The position numbers and the translations under genes were made by a program. From NCBI RefSeq assembly GCF_900112395.1, contig NZ_FOLN01000008.1:151665-215664 (forward strand): a stretch of 64,000 nucleotides of DNA, read 5' to 3'. This document shows positions 18,288-26,610 of this stretch, piece after piece (the stretch's first letter is position 1; every line of letters begins with the position of its first letter). The DNA is from Algibacter lectus (GTDB lineage Bacteria; Bacteroidota; Bacteroidia; Flavobacteriales; Flavobacteriaceae). The notes beneath the pieces are model-generated. The model saw only the letters and a program-made list of their open reading frames with translations. It had not been told where the DNA came from and ran no database searches.

Positions 18288-21056
18288 TTGGAAATAATAC
18301 TTTGCTTAAAACCTAAATTAACTCAATTGAAAAAAGTCCTCTTTTTGGCTTTTGCTCTTCTAATATCTTGTTTTGCAAAAGTACATGCGCAATGCGATGA
18401 AGTAGTAACTTATAATGTTTGTGACATGACAATCGTTGATAAGGATGCTGACGGAACGCCCGACGGAATAATTAATTTATACGACGTTTATAATGCTCTT
18501 CCTGGAGTTTCAACGCCAATAACATCGGCTTCGGGTACTTGGTTCGATCCAAATTATAATTTCTCCCTAGATGTATCTACTGGTGATTTATATTTATGGG
18601 ATTTAAAAGATGCTTCGATTGATGTCGATTCGTACCAGTTTCAATTAATCGATACGTCTAGTGCGTGTCCCGATGGAATAAAAACACGATTAAATATTGT
18701 TCTCGGCCCTTTTGAAGGTAAACCTTTGCCGCCCGCAGGAGTTAACGATGCTAATGTTACGGTATGTCAAGCAGTATTAGCTGGTTTCGATTTATTTCAA
18801 GTTTTCGAGTCGCAACCATCACCTCACAAAAATGGTGTTTGGGAGTTTGTAGGGAATATGGGAGACCCAAGTAATTTTAAAGGCTTAAGTGTTGAAGGTA
18901 AGTTTAATGCCGAAATTCCTTATGAGCCTTACGGAGATCTAGTAGAGTTTGATGTTTTCGAATTTAAATATACCGTTTATGGTGTGTCGCCATGCGATTC
19001 TGAAAAAGTATCTTATTTTAAAGTAGAAGTTATTCGTGATGTACTTTCTGGGGAACCTTCAACTTATGATATTTGTGAAAGTGATATATTATCTGGAATA
19101 TGGGATGCAGATATTGATTTAACCGATGATAGATTCCTTGTAGGTGAAGATGTAGAAGGTACATGGAAATCTGCTTTTGATCCTACAAACCAAATTTCAA
19201 ACCCAGCAGATTCTAATATCAATATTAGAGAGGTTTATGATAATTTAAAAAGTAGTACTTCTAATTTTGGTTGTAGAGAATTTACGTATACGTATTCGGT
19301 AGAAGCAAGATCTTCTTTAACCGATTGCCCAAGTAAAGAATCGGAAGTAGTATTTAGAATTTACGAACCTATAAAACCTTTTTATCAAGTTGAGCCTCTA
19401 GAAGTGTGCTTAGATGATAATAAGCCGGCAGGTATAAGTTTATACAATGAATTAATTTTTACAACCGAAAACGGGATATTGTATGATTATGCGGAAGCAT
19501 CCAGCTGTAGTTCTTGGAGTTTTGTTTCGGGACCTTCAGATATTAGAATAGATACCGATTCTGGATATATCGATTTAAATACACTTACTCAAGCTAATGC
19601 CGGTACCTACGTTTTTAGGTACTATGTTTCTAGTTTGTGCAATGCTTGTGGAACTAGTGGTACATCGCCATGCGATCCACAATTCGCTAATGTTACTATT
19701 ATTTTATTACCGAAAAATTATGCAGGTGAAGATACTGTGGGGATGGAGTTTTGCGAAAACGATCCGTTAATAGCAAGTCCTTTAAATCTATTTTCTCGTT
19801 TGAACACTAATAGTATTGACGATCCAATTTACCAAGGACCTTTAGGAACATGGGTTGATAATATTTCTGGAGAAACTATTACAAATCCAACAACCTACGA
19901 GTTGCCAGAAGTAAAGGGTAGCCAGTTGTTCGATTTTACATATTCAACCTTAACAGATAAAGGTTGTGTGGCTAGTGCAAATTTATCGTTTACAGTTTAT
20001 GAAGAATATACTGCTGGTGTTGATACACTATTAGATGTTTGTGATAACAATGGTGTTTTTGATTTGTTTGATGAATTAGAAGGAAACCCTAGCGGAACAG
20101 GAACTTGGACAGGGCCAAACGGATTTGTTACAACCGATTATAAAGCTGAATTTGATCCAACAACGGCAGATGGTGGAGTTTATACTTATACCGTTCCGGA
20201 TAATGTAACACCTGCAGGAACAACAATGTGCTCTGGTAGTGAAGCAACTATTACGGTAACCCTTTATAAAAGCCCAAGTGCAGGAGAGGATGTTGCTTAT
20301 GATGTGTGCCGATCTGACTTGGAAATCGATTTAATAGATTACCTAGATGATACAGCGAATAGCGGAGGTGTTTTTATAGATGTAGATAATGGTAATTCAC
20401 CTATAGGGAGTTTATTAGATGTTTCTCAATTAGTGGCAGGAGTTTATAATTTTCGATACGAAATTCAAGGGCATGCGTCATGTCTTTTAGATACAGCCTT
20501 AATAGAAATTACTATTTCTGAGGTTGAGGTGCCAACAACATCTAATCAAACTTTTTGTGCTGTAGATGGTGAAACTGTTAATAGCTTAGTCGCGAATAAT
20601 GGATATGATTTTAATTGGTATGATACAGCCATTGATACAACTCCGTTGCCATTAGGAACTGTTTTGATAAACGGCGAAGACTATTTTGTTGCTGCTTTAG
20701 ATGAAAATGGTTGCGAATCTCCCAAAATAGTCATGACGGTTACTATCCTACCTTTTGGAGATGATAATTGTGAAAGTTGTATTAAAGATGGTATATCGGT
20801 TAATGGTGACAATGTAAACGATGTTTTCGATTTATGTAATTTACCAGAAACCTATCCAAATTTCGAATTAAATATTCACAATAGATATGGAGTTACCGTA
20901 TATAAAGGTACAAAAAGTACACCTTTGTTTTCTGGTAAATCGAATGTTTCAGGAACACTTGGGAAGCAATTGTCTTCTGGAGTTTATTTTTATGTTTTCG
21001 ATCCGAAAGACGGGATGACTAAACCTTTTCAGGGGAATTTTTATTTAAGCAAATAA
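18288..21056 (+). CDS. Large secreted protein with a T9SS type B (gliding-motility-associated, CHU_C) C-terminal domain
   Basis: 922 residues from a TTG at 18288. An in-frame TTG at 18327 gives 909 residues beginning KKVLFLAFALLISC and may be the true start. A signal peptide ends near KVHAQ. The body is a series of Cys- and Asp-rich, beta-sandwich-like repeats with motifs such as AGVDTLLDVCDNNG and AGEDVAYDVC. The last 85 residues match the type B sorting domain (GDNVNDVFDLCNLPETYP, LNIHNRYGVTVYKG, SGVYFYVF, GNFYLSK). Such proteins cross the outer membrane through the T9SS. It is directly followed by PorP/SprF and OmpA genes, its probable export partners. Function of the body is unknown, possibly an adhesin. 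Confidence 0.88.
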   Translation: MEIILCLKPKLTQLKKVLFLAFALLISCFAKVHAQCDEVVTYNVCDMTIVDKDADGTPDGIINLYDVYNALPGVSTPITSASGTWFDPNYNFSLDVSTGDLYLWDLKDASIDVDSYQFQLIDTSSACPDGIKTRLNIVLGPFEGKPLPPAGVNDANVTVCQAVLAGFDLFQVFESQPSPHKNGVWEFVGNMGDPSNFKGLSVEGKFNAEIPYEPYGDLVEFDVFEFKYTVYGVSPCDSEKVSYFKVEVIRDVLSGEPSTYDICESDILSGIWDADIDLTDDRFLVGEDVEGTWKSAFDPTNQISNPADSNINIREVYDNLKSSTSNFGCREFTYTYSVEARSSLTDCPSKESEVVFRIYEPIKPFYQVEPLEVCLDDNKPAGISLYNELIFTTENGILYDYAEASSCSSWSFVSGPSDIRIDTDSGYIDLNTLTQANAGTYVFRYYVSSLCNACGTSGTSPCDPQFANVTIILLPKNYAGEDTVGMEFCENDPLIASPLNLFSRLNTNSIDDPIYQGPLGTWVDNISGETITNPTTYELPEVKGSQLFDFTYSTLTDKGCVASANLSFTVYEEYTAGVDTLLDVCDNNGVFDLFDELEGNPSGTGTWTGPNGFVTTDYKAEFDPTTADGGVYTYTVPDNVTPAGTTMCSGSEATITVTLYKSPSAGEDVAYDVCRSDLEIDLIDYLDDTANSGGVFIDVDNGNSPIGSLLDVSQLVAGVYNFRYEIQGHASCLLDTALIEITISEVEVPTTSNQTFCAVDGETVNSLVANNGYDFNWYDTAIDTTPLPLGTVLINGEDYFVAALDENGCESPKIVMTVTILPFGDDNCESCIKDGISVNGDNVNDVFDLCNLPETYPNFELNIHNRYGVTVYKGTKSTPLFSGKSNVSGTLGKQLSSGVYFYVFDPKDGMTKPFQGNFYLSK

Positions 21057-21060
21057 GTTG

Positions 21061-21972
21061 ATGAAGATAAAATTATTTATACTATTTATAGTTTGTAATC
21101 TGTCGGTTTTTGCACAACAAGAACCACAGTACACACAATATATGTACAATATGAGCATGGTGAATCCTGCTTATATGATAAACGAGCCAAGCCTTGTAGA
21201 AGTTGGTGCTTTGCATCGAACACAATGGGTCGGTATTGATGGGGCTCCAAAAACAACTAATGTTTTTGCTAATATTCCGTTGAATGAAAAAATAGAATTA
21301 AGCGTTAATTATTTAAATGATAATATAGGTGGAAATGTAAATACAAGTGAAAACGTATTTAATGTAGATGCAGCTTATAAAATTAATTTAAATAAAGAGC
21401 TTAATTTGTCTTTTGGATTAAAAGCCGGCTTCGATCATTTAAATTTTAGTGCTATTGGTAGTAATGTGTCTGCCGATCCTTCTTTTGGAAACACTAATAA
21501 AACGGTTTTAAATATTGGAGCAGGAGCCTTTTTATTTCATAAAAATTATTACGTCGGGTTATCGTCACCAAATTTAATTCCTGCCGATTTAAGTGTTAAT
21601 GATGGTGTGATATACAACAACAGTATTCATGGGTTTTTAATTGCAGGTTACATTTATGAATTGAATGATTTGTTTAAAATAAAACCATCAACTGTTATGA
21701 AATTTGCTGGAGGAGCGCCTTTGTCTTTTGATGTTTCTGCAAATGTTCTTTATGATAATAAATTCGAATTAGGGGTGTCTTACCGATATCAAGACGCTGT
21801 TTCTGGTTTGGCTGTTTTCAACATAACACCAGATTTACGCATCGGTTATTCGCACGATTTTAATACGAGCCAATTAAAAAGTTACAACAATGGAAGTCAC
21901 GAGTTTGTTTTGCTTTATAGGTTTGATGTATTAGGTTTAAGTAAAAAATATTCATCTCCAAGATTCTACTAA
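21061..21972 (+). CDS. PorP/SprF family type IX secretion outer-membrane protein
   Basis: 303 residues from ATG 21061; an in-frame TTG three bases earlier adds one residue. The signal peptide is followed by QEPQYTQYMYNMSMVNPAYMI, the hallmark of PorP/SprF. The rest is predicted outer-membrane beta-barrel with GAGAFLFHKNYYVGLSSPNLIP and a C-terminal DLRIGYSHDFNTSQLKSYNNGSHE. In Flavobacterium johnsoniae SprF is needed to secrete SprB, a type B cargo encoded next to it. The gene here plays the same role by position, 4 bp after the type B cargo. It is a paralogue rather than necessarily SprF itself. Confidence 0.92.
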   Translation: MKIKLFILFIVCNLSVFAQQEPQYTQYMYNMSMVNPAYMINEPSLVEVGALHRTQWVGIDGAPKTTNVFANIPLNEKIELSVNYLNDNIGGNVNTSENVFNVDAAYKINLNKELNLSFGLKAGFDHLNFSAIGSNVSADPSFGNTNKTVLNIGAGAFLFHKNYYVGLSSPNLIPADLSVNDGVIYNNSIHGFLIAGYIYELNDLFKIKPSTVMKFAGGAPLSFDVSANVLYDNKFELGVSYRYQDAVSGLAVFNITPDLRIGYSHDFNTSQLKSYNNGSHEFVLLYRFDVLGLSKKYSSPRFY

Positions 21973-21973
21973 T

Positions 21974-24001
21974 ATGATTAAGAAAATAACTTTAATTTTT
22001 GCAATCTGTTTTATGTCTCAGTTGGCCGTTGGCCAAAAATCTAGAGGCGATCGTTTTTTCGAAAAAGGAGATTACATCAACGCAGCAAAATATTACGAAA
22101 CGGCCTTAGAAAAGGAACGTCATAAAAAAGATCTAGAAAATATAGCGGAATGTTATTACAATACGTTTCAGTATCGATTAGCATCCCGACATTTAAAGCA
22201 ATTGGTAAAAGGTCGATTTGGCGAAAAGGATAAAAGCTACAACAATGAATACAACTTCAAGCTGTATCAAATACTTTCTGCCTTGGGAGATTATGAGGTT
22301 GCTTTGGTGTATTTAAAATTGTATAAAGAGAATAATTCTGCAACGTTAGATGTTGCCGAATCTATCGAAACCATTGAAGCTTTCAAACTTAAAACACCAG
22401 ATTATAAAATTGAAAAAGCGCATTTCAATTCTGAAGCTTCAGATTTTGGAGCGGTAAAGTTTGGGGATAGTGTTTATTTTACTTCCGATAGAGATGTAAA
22501 TCAATTATTCGGAAAAACTTATAAATGGACGCATCAGCCATTTTTAGATATTTATGTAACTGCTGTAAACAAAGATCTTGATACTGTTGGCTATACAAAA
22601 GCATTACCGAAAATTATCAATTCTAAATATCACGAAGGAAATTTCTGTTTTAGTAAAGATGGTAATACCTTATATATTTCAAGAAGCAATATTGTAGATG
22701 GTAAGCGTGAATTTAACGATGCCAAAACCAATGATATTCACATTTATAAATGGGTAAAAGAGAATGGAAAATGGTTGAAGCCAGTGAAATTAGCGTTTAA
22801 TAAAAACGGATTCTCATATCAGCACCCAGCTTTAAGTCCAGATGGTAGCAAATTATACTTCTCGTCTAATTTAGAAGGGGGTTTTGGAAGTTTCGATTTG
22901 TATTACGTTACTTTAAGTGAAGATGAAATTAGCGAGCCCGTAAACTTAGGAGCTGAAATAAATACAGAGAATAGGGAGCATTTTCCTTTTATATCAGAAG
23001 AAGGACATTTGTTTTTTGCGTCTAACGGACATTTAGGTTTGGGTATGTTGGATAATTTTGTTTCGGAGTTGGTGGATAATGTATTTACTGCGCCAACAAA
23101 TTTAGGTGTGCCAATCAATTCTCAATACGATGATTTCGGAATAAATTATTACAACGAAAATGAAGGCTTTTTTGCTTCGAATAGAAATAAAAAAGACGAT
23201 AATATTTTCAAGTTTAAACAATCGGGGCCAATATTTATTAGAGAGTATATCAATACATTTGAAATTCGAGATGCTGTTACAAAAGAATATATTCCTAACG
23301 CTCAAGTTTTTTTAAGCAACCGCAAAAAAGCAGAGATTTATAGCAATACCTTAGATGATACTTCTGTTTTTAACATGAATTTGTTAGCAGATCATTACGA
23401 GCTTAAAGCTGAAAGTGAAGGGTATTATGCAAAAACACTCCCAGTAGAAGTTCTAGAAAAACAAGATCAAAAACATGTATTGTATTTAAAGCAAATCCCG
23501 CCACCACCACCTGTAGTTGTAGACCCTGTGGATGCTATAATTACAGAAAAGAAAATAGATAAGAAATTAAAAGAAGAAGATCCAACGAGGTTTGCTTTGC
23601 TTACCGATGTCGATGGACCACCGGTTATAGAGAAAGATGGTAAATTGTTTTTTAAGTTAGCACCTATTTATTTCGATTTTGGTACTTGGAATATTAGAGC
23701 AGATTCTAAAAAAATATTAGACGAATTATCTGCGAAATTAGAACGTTATCCTGATATATATTTAAAAATTAGTGCACATACCGATAGTCGTGGTAGTGCA
23801 AAATACAATCAAATTTTATCAGAGCGTCGTGCAGAATCTACAAGAAATTACATAGCTTTGGAAGGTTATATTAACGCTCGTAGATTATCGTTTAAAGGTT
23901 TTGGAGAAATGGAGCCTATTGTGCCGTGCCCTATGCTAAATTGTACAGAAGATGAGCACCAGCTTAACAGACGAAGCGAGTTCGAAATTATTAAATATTA
24001 A
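21974..24001 (+). CDS. OmpA family protein with TPR, PD40 repeats and a carboxypeptidase-like domain
   Basis: 675 residues. Signal peptide (to about VGQ21), TPR-like region 25-140, PD40/beta-propeller repeats about 140-410 (HPALSPDGSKLYFSSN and FPFISEEGHLFFASNGH), a CarboxypepD-reg-like domain about 420-500 (YIPNAQVFLSNRK), a Pro-rich hinge, and an OmpA peptidoglycan-binding domain at the C-terminus (YFDFGTWNIRADSKKIL, AHTDSRGSAKYNQILSERRA). This architecture is standard for the third gene in type B cargo-PorP-OmpA cassettes. It likely anchors the export complex to the wall. Confidence 0.92.
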   Translation: MIKKITLIFAICFMSQLAVGQKSRGDRFFEKGDYINAAKYYETALEKERHKKDLENIAECYYNTFQYRLASRHLKQLVKGRFGEKDKSYNNEYNFKLYQILSALGDYEVALVYLKLYKENNSATLDVAESIETIEAFKLKTPDYKIEKAHFNSEASDFGAVKFGDSVYFTSDRDVNQLFGKTYKWTHQPFLDIYVTAVNKDLDTVGYTKALPKIINSKYHEGNFCFSKDGNTLYISRSNIVDGKREFNDAKTNDIHIYKWVKENGKWLKPVKLAFNKNGFSYQHPALSPDGSKLYFSSNLEGGFGSFDLYYVTLSEDEISEPVNLGAEINTENREHFPFISEEGHLFFASNGHLGLGMLDNFVSELVDNVFTAPTNLGVPINSQYDDFGINYYNENEGFFASNRNKKDDNIFKFKQSGPIFIREYINTFEIRDAVTKEYIPNAQVFLSNRKKAEIYSNTLDDTSVFNMNLLADHYELKAESEGYYAKTLPVEVLEKQDQKHVLYLKQIPPPPPVVVDPVDAIITEKKIDKKLKEEDPTRFALLTDVDGPPVIEKDGKLFFKLAPIYFDFGTWNIRADSKKILDELSAKLERYPDIYLKISAHTDSRGSAKYNQILSERRAESTRNYIALEGYINARRLSFKGFGEMEPIVPCPMLNCTEDEHQLNRRSEFEIIKY

Positions 24002-24007
24002 AGTTTT

Positions 24008-24643
24008 ATGAAACAATATAAATGTGTCATTTTCGATTGCGATGGTGTTTTGGTGGATAGTGAACCTTTAAGCATACAGGTGTTAGTAGATATCGCAAAT
24101 GAATATGGAGCGAATATTGATTTAGCTTACGGAATGGAACATTTTAAAGGAAGTTTCTTCGATGCCTGTAAACGTATGATTTCTGAATTAGCACAAAAAG
24201 AATTACCAGATTCTTTAGAGAGTGAATACAGACAGCGCAGTTTTGAAGCTTTTAAAAAAGATATGAAACCCGTTGAAGGTGTTAAGGGGGTTCTGAAAAA
24301 TATAAATAGGCCATTCTGTGTTGCGTCTAGCGGTCCAGAAGATAAAATAGAACTTAATTTAGGGCTTACCGGTTTGTTATCTTTCTTCGAAAATAAAATA
24401 TTTAGTTGCTATAAAATCCAAAAATGGAAACCAGATCCAGCAGTGTTTTTATGGGCAGCCGAAACTATGGGGTTTAAGCCAGAAGAATGTGTTGTAATTG
24501 AAGATAGTATATCAGGAGTTCGTGCGGCAAAAGCTGGTGGATTCGATGTTTTTGGCTACGTAGCTCACGATTATAATAACCAATTAAAAGATGAAGCGAC
24601 CCAAACTTTTGATAGTATGGATAAGCTTTTAAGTATGATTTAA
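24008..24643 (+). CDS. HAD-superfamily hydrolase, beta-phosphoglucomutase-like
   Basis: 211 residues. HAD motif I FDCDGVLVDSEP places the nucleophile Asp10 and Asp12; motif II is in CVASSGPEDK, motif III a Lys in KIQKWKPDPAVF, and motif IV ECVVIEDSISGVRAAKAGG. A helical cap follows motif I, as in beta-phosphoglucomutase-like phosphatases. The substrate is unresolved, likely a sugar phosphate. It starts 6 bp after the OmpA gene but is probably not part of the export cassette by function. Confidence 0.9.
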   Translation: MKQYKCVIFDCDGVLVDSEPLSIQVLVDIANEYGANIDLAYGMEHFKGSFFDACKRMISELAQKELPDSLESEYRQRSFEAFKKDMKPVEGVKGVLKNINRPFCVASSGPEDKIELNLGLTGLLSFFENKIFSCYKIQKWKPDPAVFLWAAETMGFKPEECVVIEDSISGVRAAKAGGFDVFGYVAHDYNNQLKDEATQTFDSMDKLLSMI

Positions 24644-24723
24644 AACACCTTTTTGTTACATGAGGCTAGAATATGGGCTTCATTGAAATAATAAAAATCA
24701 CAATTTCCATTAAAAATATATCT

Positions 24724-25248
24724 ATGAAGAAAAAGTACACTTTAATTGCATTTCTGTTTTTGTCTTTAAATGTTATGGCGATGCAAATTTTTGTTAAACT
24801 TAGTGATGGTAAGACTATAGCCTTAGAGGTTGAAGCAAATGATACAATTGATAATGTAAAAGCAAAAATTCAAGATAAGGAAGGTATACCTCCAAATGAA
24901 CAAGTTTTAAAATACAACGGTCAGACTTTAGAGGATGGACGTACGCTAGCTGATTATAATATTCAAAAAGAATCTACTTTGTTTTTAGAGTCGTCTACAT
25001 TATCAGTAAATAATTTAGCGAATGTAGAGTGTAAATTATCCGTATATCCGGTGCCTGCTAAAAATTATATTTCTATTTCTAATTTAAAAGAAGTTAAAAC
25101 ATACCGTATTCTAAATGTACTAGGACAAGGAGTTCAGGAAGGTGTTGTTTCTAGTGGTAAAGATCGAATTGATATTCAAAGTTTAGATAGAGGTTTTTAT
25201 GTTTTGAATTTTAAAAATGAAGAATCATTACGTTTCTTGAAAGAATAA
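24724..25248 (+). CDS. Secreted ubiquitin-domain protein with T9SS type A sorting domain
   Basis: 174 residues from ATG 24724 (an upstream in-frame ATG at 24673 would only prefix the signal peptide). Signal peptide 1-19 ends VMA and predicted cleavage leaves MQIFVK, the exact N-terminus of ubiquitin. Residues 20-88 are a ubiquitin fold with [12 protein letters not shown] and [18 protein letters not shown]. By hand against remembered human ubiquitin, 52 of 69 positions are identical. A short linker (89-104) leads to a type A CTD (105-174: [16 protein letters not shown], then DRGFYVLNF and LRFLKE). Lys 6, 11, 27, 29, 33 and 63 are kept, Lys48 is Gln, and the LRLRGG tail and the Leu8/Ile44/Val70 patch are lost. 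It stands alone, convergent with the HMG-CoA reductase gene. Export and surface anchoring are inferred. Confidence 0.95.
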
Positions 25249-25272: not shown

Positions 25273-25293
25273 TAGACGGAATCTTTCTGTCTA
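25273..25293. terminator. Hairpin between the ubiquitin gene and the convergent HMG-CoA reductase gene
   Basis: TAGACGGAA (25273-25281) pairs with TTCTGTCTA (25285-25293), with one G-T pair, around a 3-nt loop. It overlaps the minus-strand stop codon, and a T-rich stretch follows on the plus strand. Probable terminator for both genes. Confidence 0.6.
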
Positions 25294-26610
25294 TTCCTTT
25301 CTTAAATTATTGATAGCATTTACAACAGCACTATGGCTAACAGGATTGTTTGCAAAATGTTCAACTAGAATCACTTTTTCTGCATCATTAGCTTCAAACT
25401 GATTTAAAATATTCATAAGGTGCATTTTCATGTGTCCTTTTTGAATACCAGTAGTTGTAAGCGAACGCAATGCTGCGAAGTTTTGTGCTAATCCTGCAAC
25501 TGCTACAATAGACATCAACTCTTTTGCCGATGGTTTATGGAGTAATTCTAAAGCTAATTTAACCAAAGGGTGTAAGCCTGTTAATCCGCCAACGGTACCC
25601 AAAGCTAATGGTATTTCCATCCAAAAGGTAAATATGCCGTTTTCAATTTTAGAGTGCGATAAGCTACTGTATTTTCCGTTTCTAGAAGCATAAGCATGTA
25701 CGCCAGCCTCTACAGCTCTAAAATCGTTTCCGGTGGCAAGTACAACAGCATCAATACCATTCATAATACCTTTATTATGAGTCACGGCTCTATAAGGTTC
25801 TACTTCTGCAATATTTACAGCTCTCACAAATTTTTCAGCGAAAGCTTTACCAGAAATGGCTTTATTTTCACTTAAATCTTCCACCTTACAACTTACCTCG
25901 GCACGCACTAAACATTCGGGTACGTAGTTAGAAAGGATGCTCATCACTATTTCTAGATGCTTTTCTTCTTCACAAAAACCAGAAAATAATAAAGCCTCAT
26001 TTTTAAAGGTTTTTGCAAATTGCTCTAGACAAGAATTTATAAAATTAGCACCCATGGCATCTAGCGTTTCAAAAGAGGCGTGTAGTTGGTAGTAGCCTTC
26101 AATATCGGCTGTTTTATCTCGTAATTCAATATCTAGAATACCACCGCCACGAGCTTCCATGTTTTTGGTAAGTGGCTTAGCTTCGGTAATTAATTTTTGT
26201 TTTACGGTGTCGAAAAACGATTTTAGATTTTCATAATCACCATGAAACATAAAATGAACTTGTCCAATTTTTGTAGTAGAAATTACAGTAGTTTTAAAAC
26301 CACCTCTGTCTAGCCAAAATTTTGCAGCTTTACTTGCTGCGGCTACAACAGAGCTTTCTTCAATAGCCATTGGTATGGCGTAAAGCGTTTCGTTTATTAA
26401 AAAGTTAGGAGCAACACCAAGTGGTAAATAATAATTACTAATGGTGTTTTCTATAAACTCATCATGTAATTGCTGTAGCTTTTCGTTATCATTCCAGTAT
26501 TGTTTTAAAACAGCTTTCGTGTTTTCTGCATTGGCAAAATAGGTATTTGCAATCCAGTCAATTTTTTTAGATTTAGATAATTTTGAAAATCCAGCAATCG
26601 TTTTACTCAT
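25291..26610 (-). CDS. Hydroxymethylglutaryl-CoA reductase (class II)
   Basis: 439 residues. Class II HMG-CoA reductase of the mevalonate route for isoprenoids. The catalytic residues align with the Pseudomonas mevalonii enzyme: Glu84 or Glu85 (MAIEESSVV), Lys280 (THNKGI), Asp296 (ATGNDFRAVE) and His393 (QKGHMKMH). LDAMGANFINSCLE is the CoA/cofactor dimer segment. Whether it runs in the biosynthetic (NADPH) direction is inferred from the Bacteroidota mevalonate pathway. No other mevalonate gene is next to it. A possible TATCTTTA -7 element lies at 26631-26638 on the minus strand. Confidence 0.93.
   Translation of the reverse strand: MSKTIAGFSKLSKSKKIDWIANTYFANAENTKAVLKQYWNDNEKLQQLHDEFIENTISNYYLPLGVAPNFLINETLYAIPMAIEESSVVAAASKAAKFWLDRGGFKTTVISTTKIGQVHFMFHGDYENLKSFFDTVKQKLITEAKPLTKNMEARGGGILDIELRDKTADIEGYYQLHASFETLDAMGANFINSCLEQFAKTFKNEALLFSGFCEEEKHLEIVMSILSNYVPECLVRAEVSCKVEDLSENKAISGKAFAEKFVRAVNIAEVEPYRAVTHNKGIMNGIDAVVLATGNDFRAVEAGVHAYASRNGKYSSLSHSKIENGIFTFWMEIPLALGTVGGLTGLHPLVKLALELLHKPSAKELMSIVAVAGLAQNFAALRSLTTTGIQKGHMKMHLMNILNQFEANDAEKVILVEHFANNPVSHSAVVNAINNLRKE

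Follow-up and report, generated by a model that had tools for sequence, protein, structure and literature searches.

A eukaryotic-type ubiquitin fused to a type IX secretion sorting domain in Algibacter lectus, and its relatives behind signal peptides in many bacterial phyla

Results

The flavobacterium Algibacter lectus carries a gene whose product joins a signal-peptide-like head, a ubiquitin of eukaryotic type and a type A sorting domain of the type IX secretion system (T9SS), in that order. Judged at the level of sequence, this gene is conserved in some congeners and missing from others, its ubiquitin part is under purifying selection, its genome holds SprA and T9SS sortases, and no partner gene is shared by the fusions at six loci beyond the genus. 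We tentatively propose (probability roughly 0.4) that the product is a stand-alone extracellular ubiquitin which would be delivered by the T9SS and would harm competing bacteria, as BfUbb of Bacteroides fragilis does. The gene lies in a stretch of 64,000 nucleotides, hereafter the window (positions 151,665 to 215,664 of the 215,664-base contig NZ_FOLN01000008.1, assembly GCF_900112395.1). The genome (G000) measures 4.81 Mb, is 100% complete and has one match to the ubiquitin family model PF00240.

The open frame at 24724..25248 on the plus strand encodes 174 amino acids followed by a stop, and an earlier in-frame ATG at 24673 would give a 191-residue version of the same protein; a frame read on the opposite strand is full of stops. 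Residues 1–19 (24724..24780, plus strand) have a hydrophobic core and end in NVMA, with Ala at −1 directly abutting Met1 of ubiquitin, and by translation and rule of thumb they qualify as a Sec signal peptide; this junction recurs in the orthologues and in other fusions. The ubiquitin domain (residues 20–88; 24781..24987, plus strand) is identical to human ubiquitin at 52 of 69 positions, which reproduces a count made by hand in the preliminary description of this DNA, and no RGG end follows it. A linker (residues 89–106; 24988..25041, plus strand), modelled with low confidence at 93–101, leads to the T9SS type A sorting domain, or C-terminal domain (CTD; residues 107–174; 25042..25245, plus strand). 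The match to PF00240 reaches 83.1 bits against a cut-off of 25.4, and the CTD scores 39.6 bits with PF18962 (cut-off 27) and 32.2 bits with TIGR04183 (cut-off 23), in agreement with the three-part design proposed in that description.

Polyubiquitins dominated the first homologue search (7950 matches), and a fold search with the whole protein returned ubiquitins only; the CTD was therefore folded separately, and it matched solved T9SS CTD structures. ThiS and MoaD share the beta-grasp fold, and neither family was among the 14 Pfam families matched at E ≤ 1, in keeping with the earlier assignment to ubiquitin proper. The motifs PxP and GxY are invariant across 13 CTDs. Searches for the export machinery, which covered the SprA and sortase models, found SprA in the window genome (2743 bits) and two full-length T9SS sortases, the enzyme known as PorU (L132 and L133, at G000:C25 and G000:C18). 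They score 1392 and 1373 bits where the cut-off is 420, with a model that also matches, below cut-off, in two of 14 control genomes.

The surfaces by which ubiquitin is normally read are altered. The recognition patch of ubiquitin consists of L8, I44 and V70 (and H68). The window copy carries the replacements L8S, R42V, I44K, K48Q and H68F, followed by E for V70, so that S8, K44, E70 and F68 stand in place of the patch, and its positions 70–76 read E-S-S-T-L-S-V, without the C-terminal RGG of a conjugable ubiquitin. Across the three rows of the genus, which match human ubiquitin at 45–52 of 69 positions, L8 is S or N, R42 is V or I, I44 is K or T, K48 is Q or V, H68 is F, L or I, and V70 is E or S; the RGG end is gone, and K6, K11, K27, K29, K33 and K63 are kept. 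The window family has no conserved or terminal Cys. Because the window copy lacks both the RGG end and the I44 patch, conjugation or mimicry of host ubiquitin is unlikely, which weakens the earlier view of the protein as a ubiquitin mimic. Canonical reading by ubiquitin receptors also appears unlikely in this genus, and since the domain is conserved all the same, it likely has another ligand.

Orthologues with all three parts occur in genome G002 (86% identity) and in Algibacter miyuki (G003, 62%), at an identical site between genes for a HAD-IA family hydrolase and hydroxymethylglutaryl-CoA (HMG-CoA) reductase. The stop-to-stop gap between these flanking genes is 647 bp in the window genome, 646 bp in G002 and 580 bp in A. 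miyuki; in two congeners without the gene (G001 and G004) it shrinks to 14 and 11 bp. This synteny in two congeners and closed site in two others count against an assembly contaminant, a doubt raised when the gene was first described. HMG-CoA reductase sets A. miyuki furthest apart from the window genome (88.1% identity against 91.6–97.9% for the others), so that loss of an old gene in G001 and G004 seems more probable than a recent gain. The ratio of non-synonymous to synonymous substitution rates (dN/dS; Nei–Gojobori, three pairs) is 0.12–0.18 for the ubiquitin part and 0.28–0.37 for the linker and CTD, with dS near 1 in comparisons with A. miyuki, which indicates purifying selection on the ubiquitin part.

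Fusions of head, ubiquitin and CTD are not confined to Algibacter. Of 397 genomes from the family, 8 matched PF00240, as did 6 of 395 from the phylum (the window genome is included in both counts); 14 named control genomes had no match. CTD fusions, whose presence in several flavobacteria the preliminary description had named as support, were found in Lutibacter (two), Seonamhaeicola, Ochrovirga, Carboxylicivirga, an uncultured Flavobacteriaceae bacterium and two further genomes, one of which has two copies. Six fusions outside the genus share 43–57% identity with the window protein, against 63% for A. miyuki in the same BLASTP comparison. The spacer before the CTD is longer in a Flavobacteriales metagenome-assembled genome (MAG; L046), and the T9SS domain of L051 falls below the Pfam gathering score. 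Apart from the synteny between the window and A. miyuki, no gene for immunity, conjugation or any other role was shared beside the fusions at six loci beyond the genus (open reading frames of at least 110 amino acids, E ≤ 1e-8, some stretches being short on one side); the fusion itself was all that the neighbourhoods had in common. Locus L038 differs from the rest: its ubiquitin match is weaker (57 bits) and sits within an open frame of 1874 amino acids that has no signal-peptide junction.

The arrangement also reaches well beyond the Bacteroidota, a wider setting than first envisaged. When 84,980 species genomes were scanned, 200 loci were confirmed; the best 80 of these, ranked against the window family, encode 83 proteins. 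Record titles assign them to 15 named phyla and leave one unplaced. MAG or uncultured-type titles, a crude label, apply to 48 of the 80 loci, so that binning errors are possible there; named strains account for 25 titles by our own count, in four phyla (Bacteroidota, Pseudomonadota, Bacillota and Actinomycetota), and one relative (L090) lies on a complete Pseudomonas protegens chromosome. By the same rule of thumb, 77 of the 83 proteins have a hydrophobic head, with A, G or S at −1, directly before the start of ubiquitin; in three of the six others the head is displaced by one residue, and the remaining three lack it. One of the two peptide patterns used in the scan included this junction, which was nevertheless present in 69 of the 75 proteins without that pattern, and in all listed loci but L038 from the PF00240 search, which is free of the pattern bias. 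The earlier statement that genuine ubiquitin is rare in bacteria is therefore better put as sporadic but widespread, in line with the family and phylum counts above.

What follows ubiquitin varies. Among 84 proteins, including that of the window (P0001), Pfam matches at E ≤ 0.001 gave an autotransporter barrel in 18, a T9SS domain in ten, SLH in five, Glug in five, Listeria–Bacteroides repeats in four, IPTL-CTERM in three, and Ig-like types; some proteins have no tail at all. Carriers of autotransporter, SLH or IPTL-CTERM tails include Pseudomonas, Iodobacter, Akkermansiaceae, Saccharibacillus, Cohnella and Cocleimonas. Residues were counted after L040, L038 and further duplicate loci had been dropped; the 14 rows classed as other T9SS represent 11 genes (duplicates L005/L042, L033/L045 and L035/L043). 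The 16 rows of the autotransporter class, 11 of them confirmed singly by Pfam (L049 just at the cut-off) and the rest assigned by likeness, match human ubiquitin at 57–68 of 69 positions and keep L8 in 15, I44 in nine and V70 in 11. Read by eye, the full VLRLRGG end is present in eight of 83 rows.

Free forms occur in Flavobacterium-group genomes (L123, L125, L146–L148, L032 and L054), and three copies (L032, L054 and one at L123) have a Cys in or close to the last position, as in BfUbb. Genome G733 has two free signal peptide–ubiquitin genes close together, G817 has three PF00240 matches close together, and Pedobacter cryoconitis (L109:5231-6630) has four such genes in tandem, encoding 96–97 amino acids with ends LR or IRP. 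Signal peptide–ubiquitin genes were also seen on IMG/VR contigs (L134–L137, L142 and L143), where the RGG end is complete in one and three have CTERM-like tails, and a gene on the 420-kb replicon NC_014824.1 of Ruminococcus albus 7 (388198-388500) is annotated as 'ubiquitin family protein' (H1, H4). The window gene had no plasmid match as DNA; a protein search of plasmids matched three records, none covering more than 80% of the query, and no phage record matched the window protein or a free form from Dyella.

The tree built on 70 alignment columns had one starred branch of 101 and left the window row unplaced. Since eukaryotic rows are interspersed among the bacterial ones, and an approximately unbiased test did not reject a single clade of all 17 T9SS rows (p = 0.323), these columns are unable to distinguish a single capture from several. 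The direct transfer from a eukaryote to this flavobacterium that the preliminary description implied is not required, because signal peptide–ubiquitin units are found with other tails across many phyla; with head-ubiquitin proteins spread so widely, flavobacteria may have received the unit from bacteria.

Both borders of the variable site lie outside the proposed system. On the left, the HAD-IA family hydrolase (24008..24643, plus strand) is identified by TIGR01509 (66.7 bits) and synteny; on the right, the convergent HMG-CoA reductase (25291..26610, minus strand) by TIGR00532 (298.5 bits) and synteny. A weak terminator-like hairpin with three G-C pairs (25273..25293, plus strand) lies between the two convergent genes, and the scanned region has three terminator-like sites where shuffled sequences average 0.7. 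No Bacteroidetes-type promoter was found near the gene by its consensus, and the gap upstream has no sigma-70-like site on the plus strand. Directly upstream of the ubiquitin locus, a T9SS-type cluster (18288-24001) encodes a 922-residue protein whose type B sorting domain is weak, at 29.4 bits where the cut-off is 35; a member of the PorP/SprF family (244.5 bits); and an OmpA-like relative of PorE that scores 286.7 bits, short of the 600 that its model requires.

Discussion

Proteins that enter the T9SS route are exported by Sec, guided through the outer membrane by their CTD and freed of the CTD by a sortase. Sec is expected to carry the window product over the inner membrane, and cleavage after Ala19 would leave a mature protein that begins at ubiquitin Met1. 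The CTD is predicted to guide it across the outer membrane, where a sortase would remove the CTD and the product would either be attached to the surface or be released, in the latter case as a ubiquitin some 85 residues long whose end does not allow conjugation. In such a scheme ubiquitin would be the cargo and the tail the lineage's own export solution; relatives have an autotransporter barrel, an S-layer anchor, IPTL-CTERM or nothing in its place. Compared with other T9SS type A cargo (PF18962/TIGR04183; FspA, NucA and the CTD–translocon structures 8glj and 8glk), the window protein shares the CTD family and fold, the signal-peptide-like head and the T9SS genes in the genome, and differs in having ubiquitin as its passenger. 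The ubiquitin proteins with autotransporter, SLH or IPTL-CTERM tails have the same head, ubiquitin from Met1 and an export or anchoring tail, although the tails are of other kinds and their ubiquitin is usually closer to human. Eukaryotic ubiquitin, made as polyubiquitin or ribosomal-protein fusions, has the same fold and 52 of 69 residues in common with the window domain, which is by contrast bacterial, equipped with export signals and without the RGG end and I44 patch.

BfUbb is the sole experimentally characterised exported bacterial ubiquitin that our literature search found. It is reported to be a secreted antibacterial toxin whose deletion abolishes inhibition and for which an immunity protein is apparently not needed; the synthetic 76-residue protein inhibits at 250 ng whereas bovine ubiquitin is inactive, which argues that the bacterial sequence has a specificity of its own (PMC5705921). 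The same study places the ubb gene in 13 of 97 genomes and presents B. fragilis as 'one of a few bacteria' with ubiquitin. Like BfUbb, the window protein is a eukaryotic-type ubiquitin of the Bacteroidota behind a signal peptide, with a mature start at Met1 (predicted here), no GG end and a patchy distribution among close relatives (PMC5705921, PMC3352274). The window protein, of 174 residues with its CTD, has lost the I44 patch and is 55% identical to the B. fragilis protein of solved structure; BfUbb, by contrast, is free, 76 residues long when mature and ends in Cys, and it is not described as T9SS-sorted. The window gene resembles BfUbb in how its product would be exported, in lacking GG, in its patchy occurrence and in having no partner gene, and on these grounds we put bacterial competition first; the target, with BfUbb as our guide, would be a component of other bacteria rather than a host ubiquitin enzyme. 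Periplasmic peptidyl-prolyl isomerase, reportedly what BfUbb acts on, would be a first candidate.

Other explanations are compatible with parts of these data. The protein could instead be a surface or released decoy acting on nearby eukaryotes (algae, protists or animals), for instance by jamming ubiquitin enzymes or receptors. Recombinant BfUbb is reported to bind human E1, an ability that its authors put down to the terminal Cys, and to inhibit ubiquitination in vitro (PMC3352274), and many relatives on other tails retain I44, H68 and V70; in the window genus, however, L8, R42, I44, K48, H68 and V70 are all changed and neither an RGG end nor a terminal Cys is present, and the inactivity of bovine ubiquitin in the bacterial assay also speaks against a decoy (PMC5705921). 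Taking these changes together with delivery into the eukaryotic cytosol, for which we know of no T9SS example, we regard this role as unlikely. It is likewise improbable that ubiquitin serves as a compact, stable cap for folding or display without a ligand of its own: such a cap would suit the large repeat proteins of other phyla that ubiquitin heads (Glug, Ig-like, SLH) and its near-constant position right after the predicted cleavage site, but ubiquitin is the sole cargo in most T9SS fusions, in free forms and in short CTERM forms, and it is more constrained than the tail.

T9SS cargo is often adhesive or enzymatic, and two carriers bear algal names (A. miyuki and Seonamhaeicola algicola), which would fit a domain that binds a carbohydrate or protein ligand of the habitat without killing; with no binding module besides ubiquitin in the window protein, we think this rather improbable. 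To contamination or a dead gene we give next to no credence. Patchiness and the many MAG or uncultured-type titles would be expected of an artefact, yet the gene occupies a common site among flavobacterial neighbours in three genomes, one of them a single-contig assembly (G002; estimated contamination is 7% in A. miyuki), has dN/dS well under 1 and no stops, and has a relative on the complete P. protegens chromosome.

With bacterial competition as the working proposal for the window protein, the many tails raise a broader possibility, which we hold with some reserve: that one class spans many phyla, in which a eukaryotic-type ubiquitin was captured behind a signal peptide, is exposed from Met1, has been remounted on each lineage's export route and acts as an extracellular, non-conjugating weapon between microbes. 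The T9SS form of the window would then be a branch without the eukaryotic recognition patch. Neither ubiquitin as T9SS cargo nor a multi-tail family was described in the titles and abstract openings searched, with subscription literature mostly outside the search, which accords with the earlier impression that a T9SS-sorted ubiquitin was new. The family may have been overlooked through annotation, because the NCBI record for S. algicola (P0122) begins at ubiquitin Met1, omits the 19-residue head encoded by the DNA and has been given no name but 'T9SS type A sorting domain-containing protein', and because the gene of BfUbb was likewise annotated too short (PMC5705921).

A T9SS-sorted ubiquitin under purifying selection, together with units like it on several unrelated tails in many phyla, opens the question of what an extracellular ubiquitin does that is neither conjugable nor readable by the usual receptors. 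Ubiquitin is a textbook eukaryotic protein; on this evidence, extracellular ubiquitin would become a recurrent bacterial tool.
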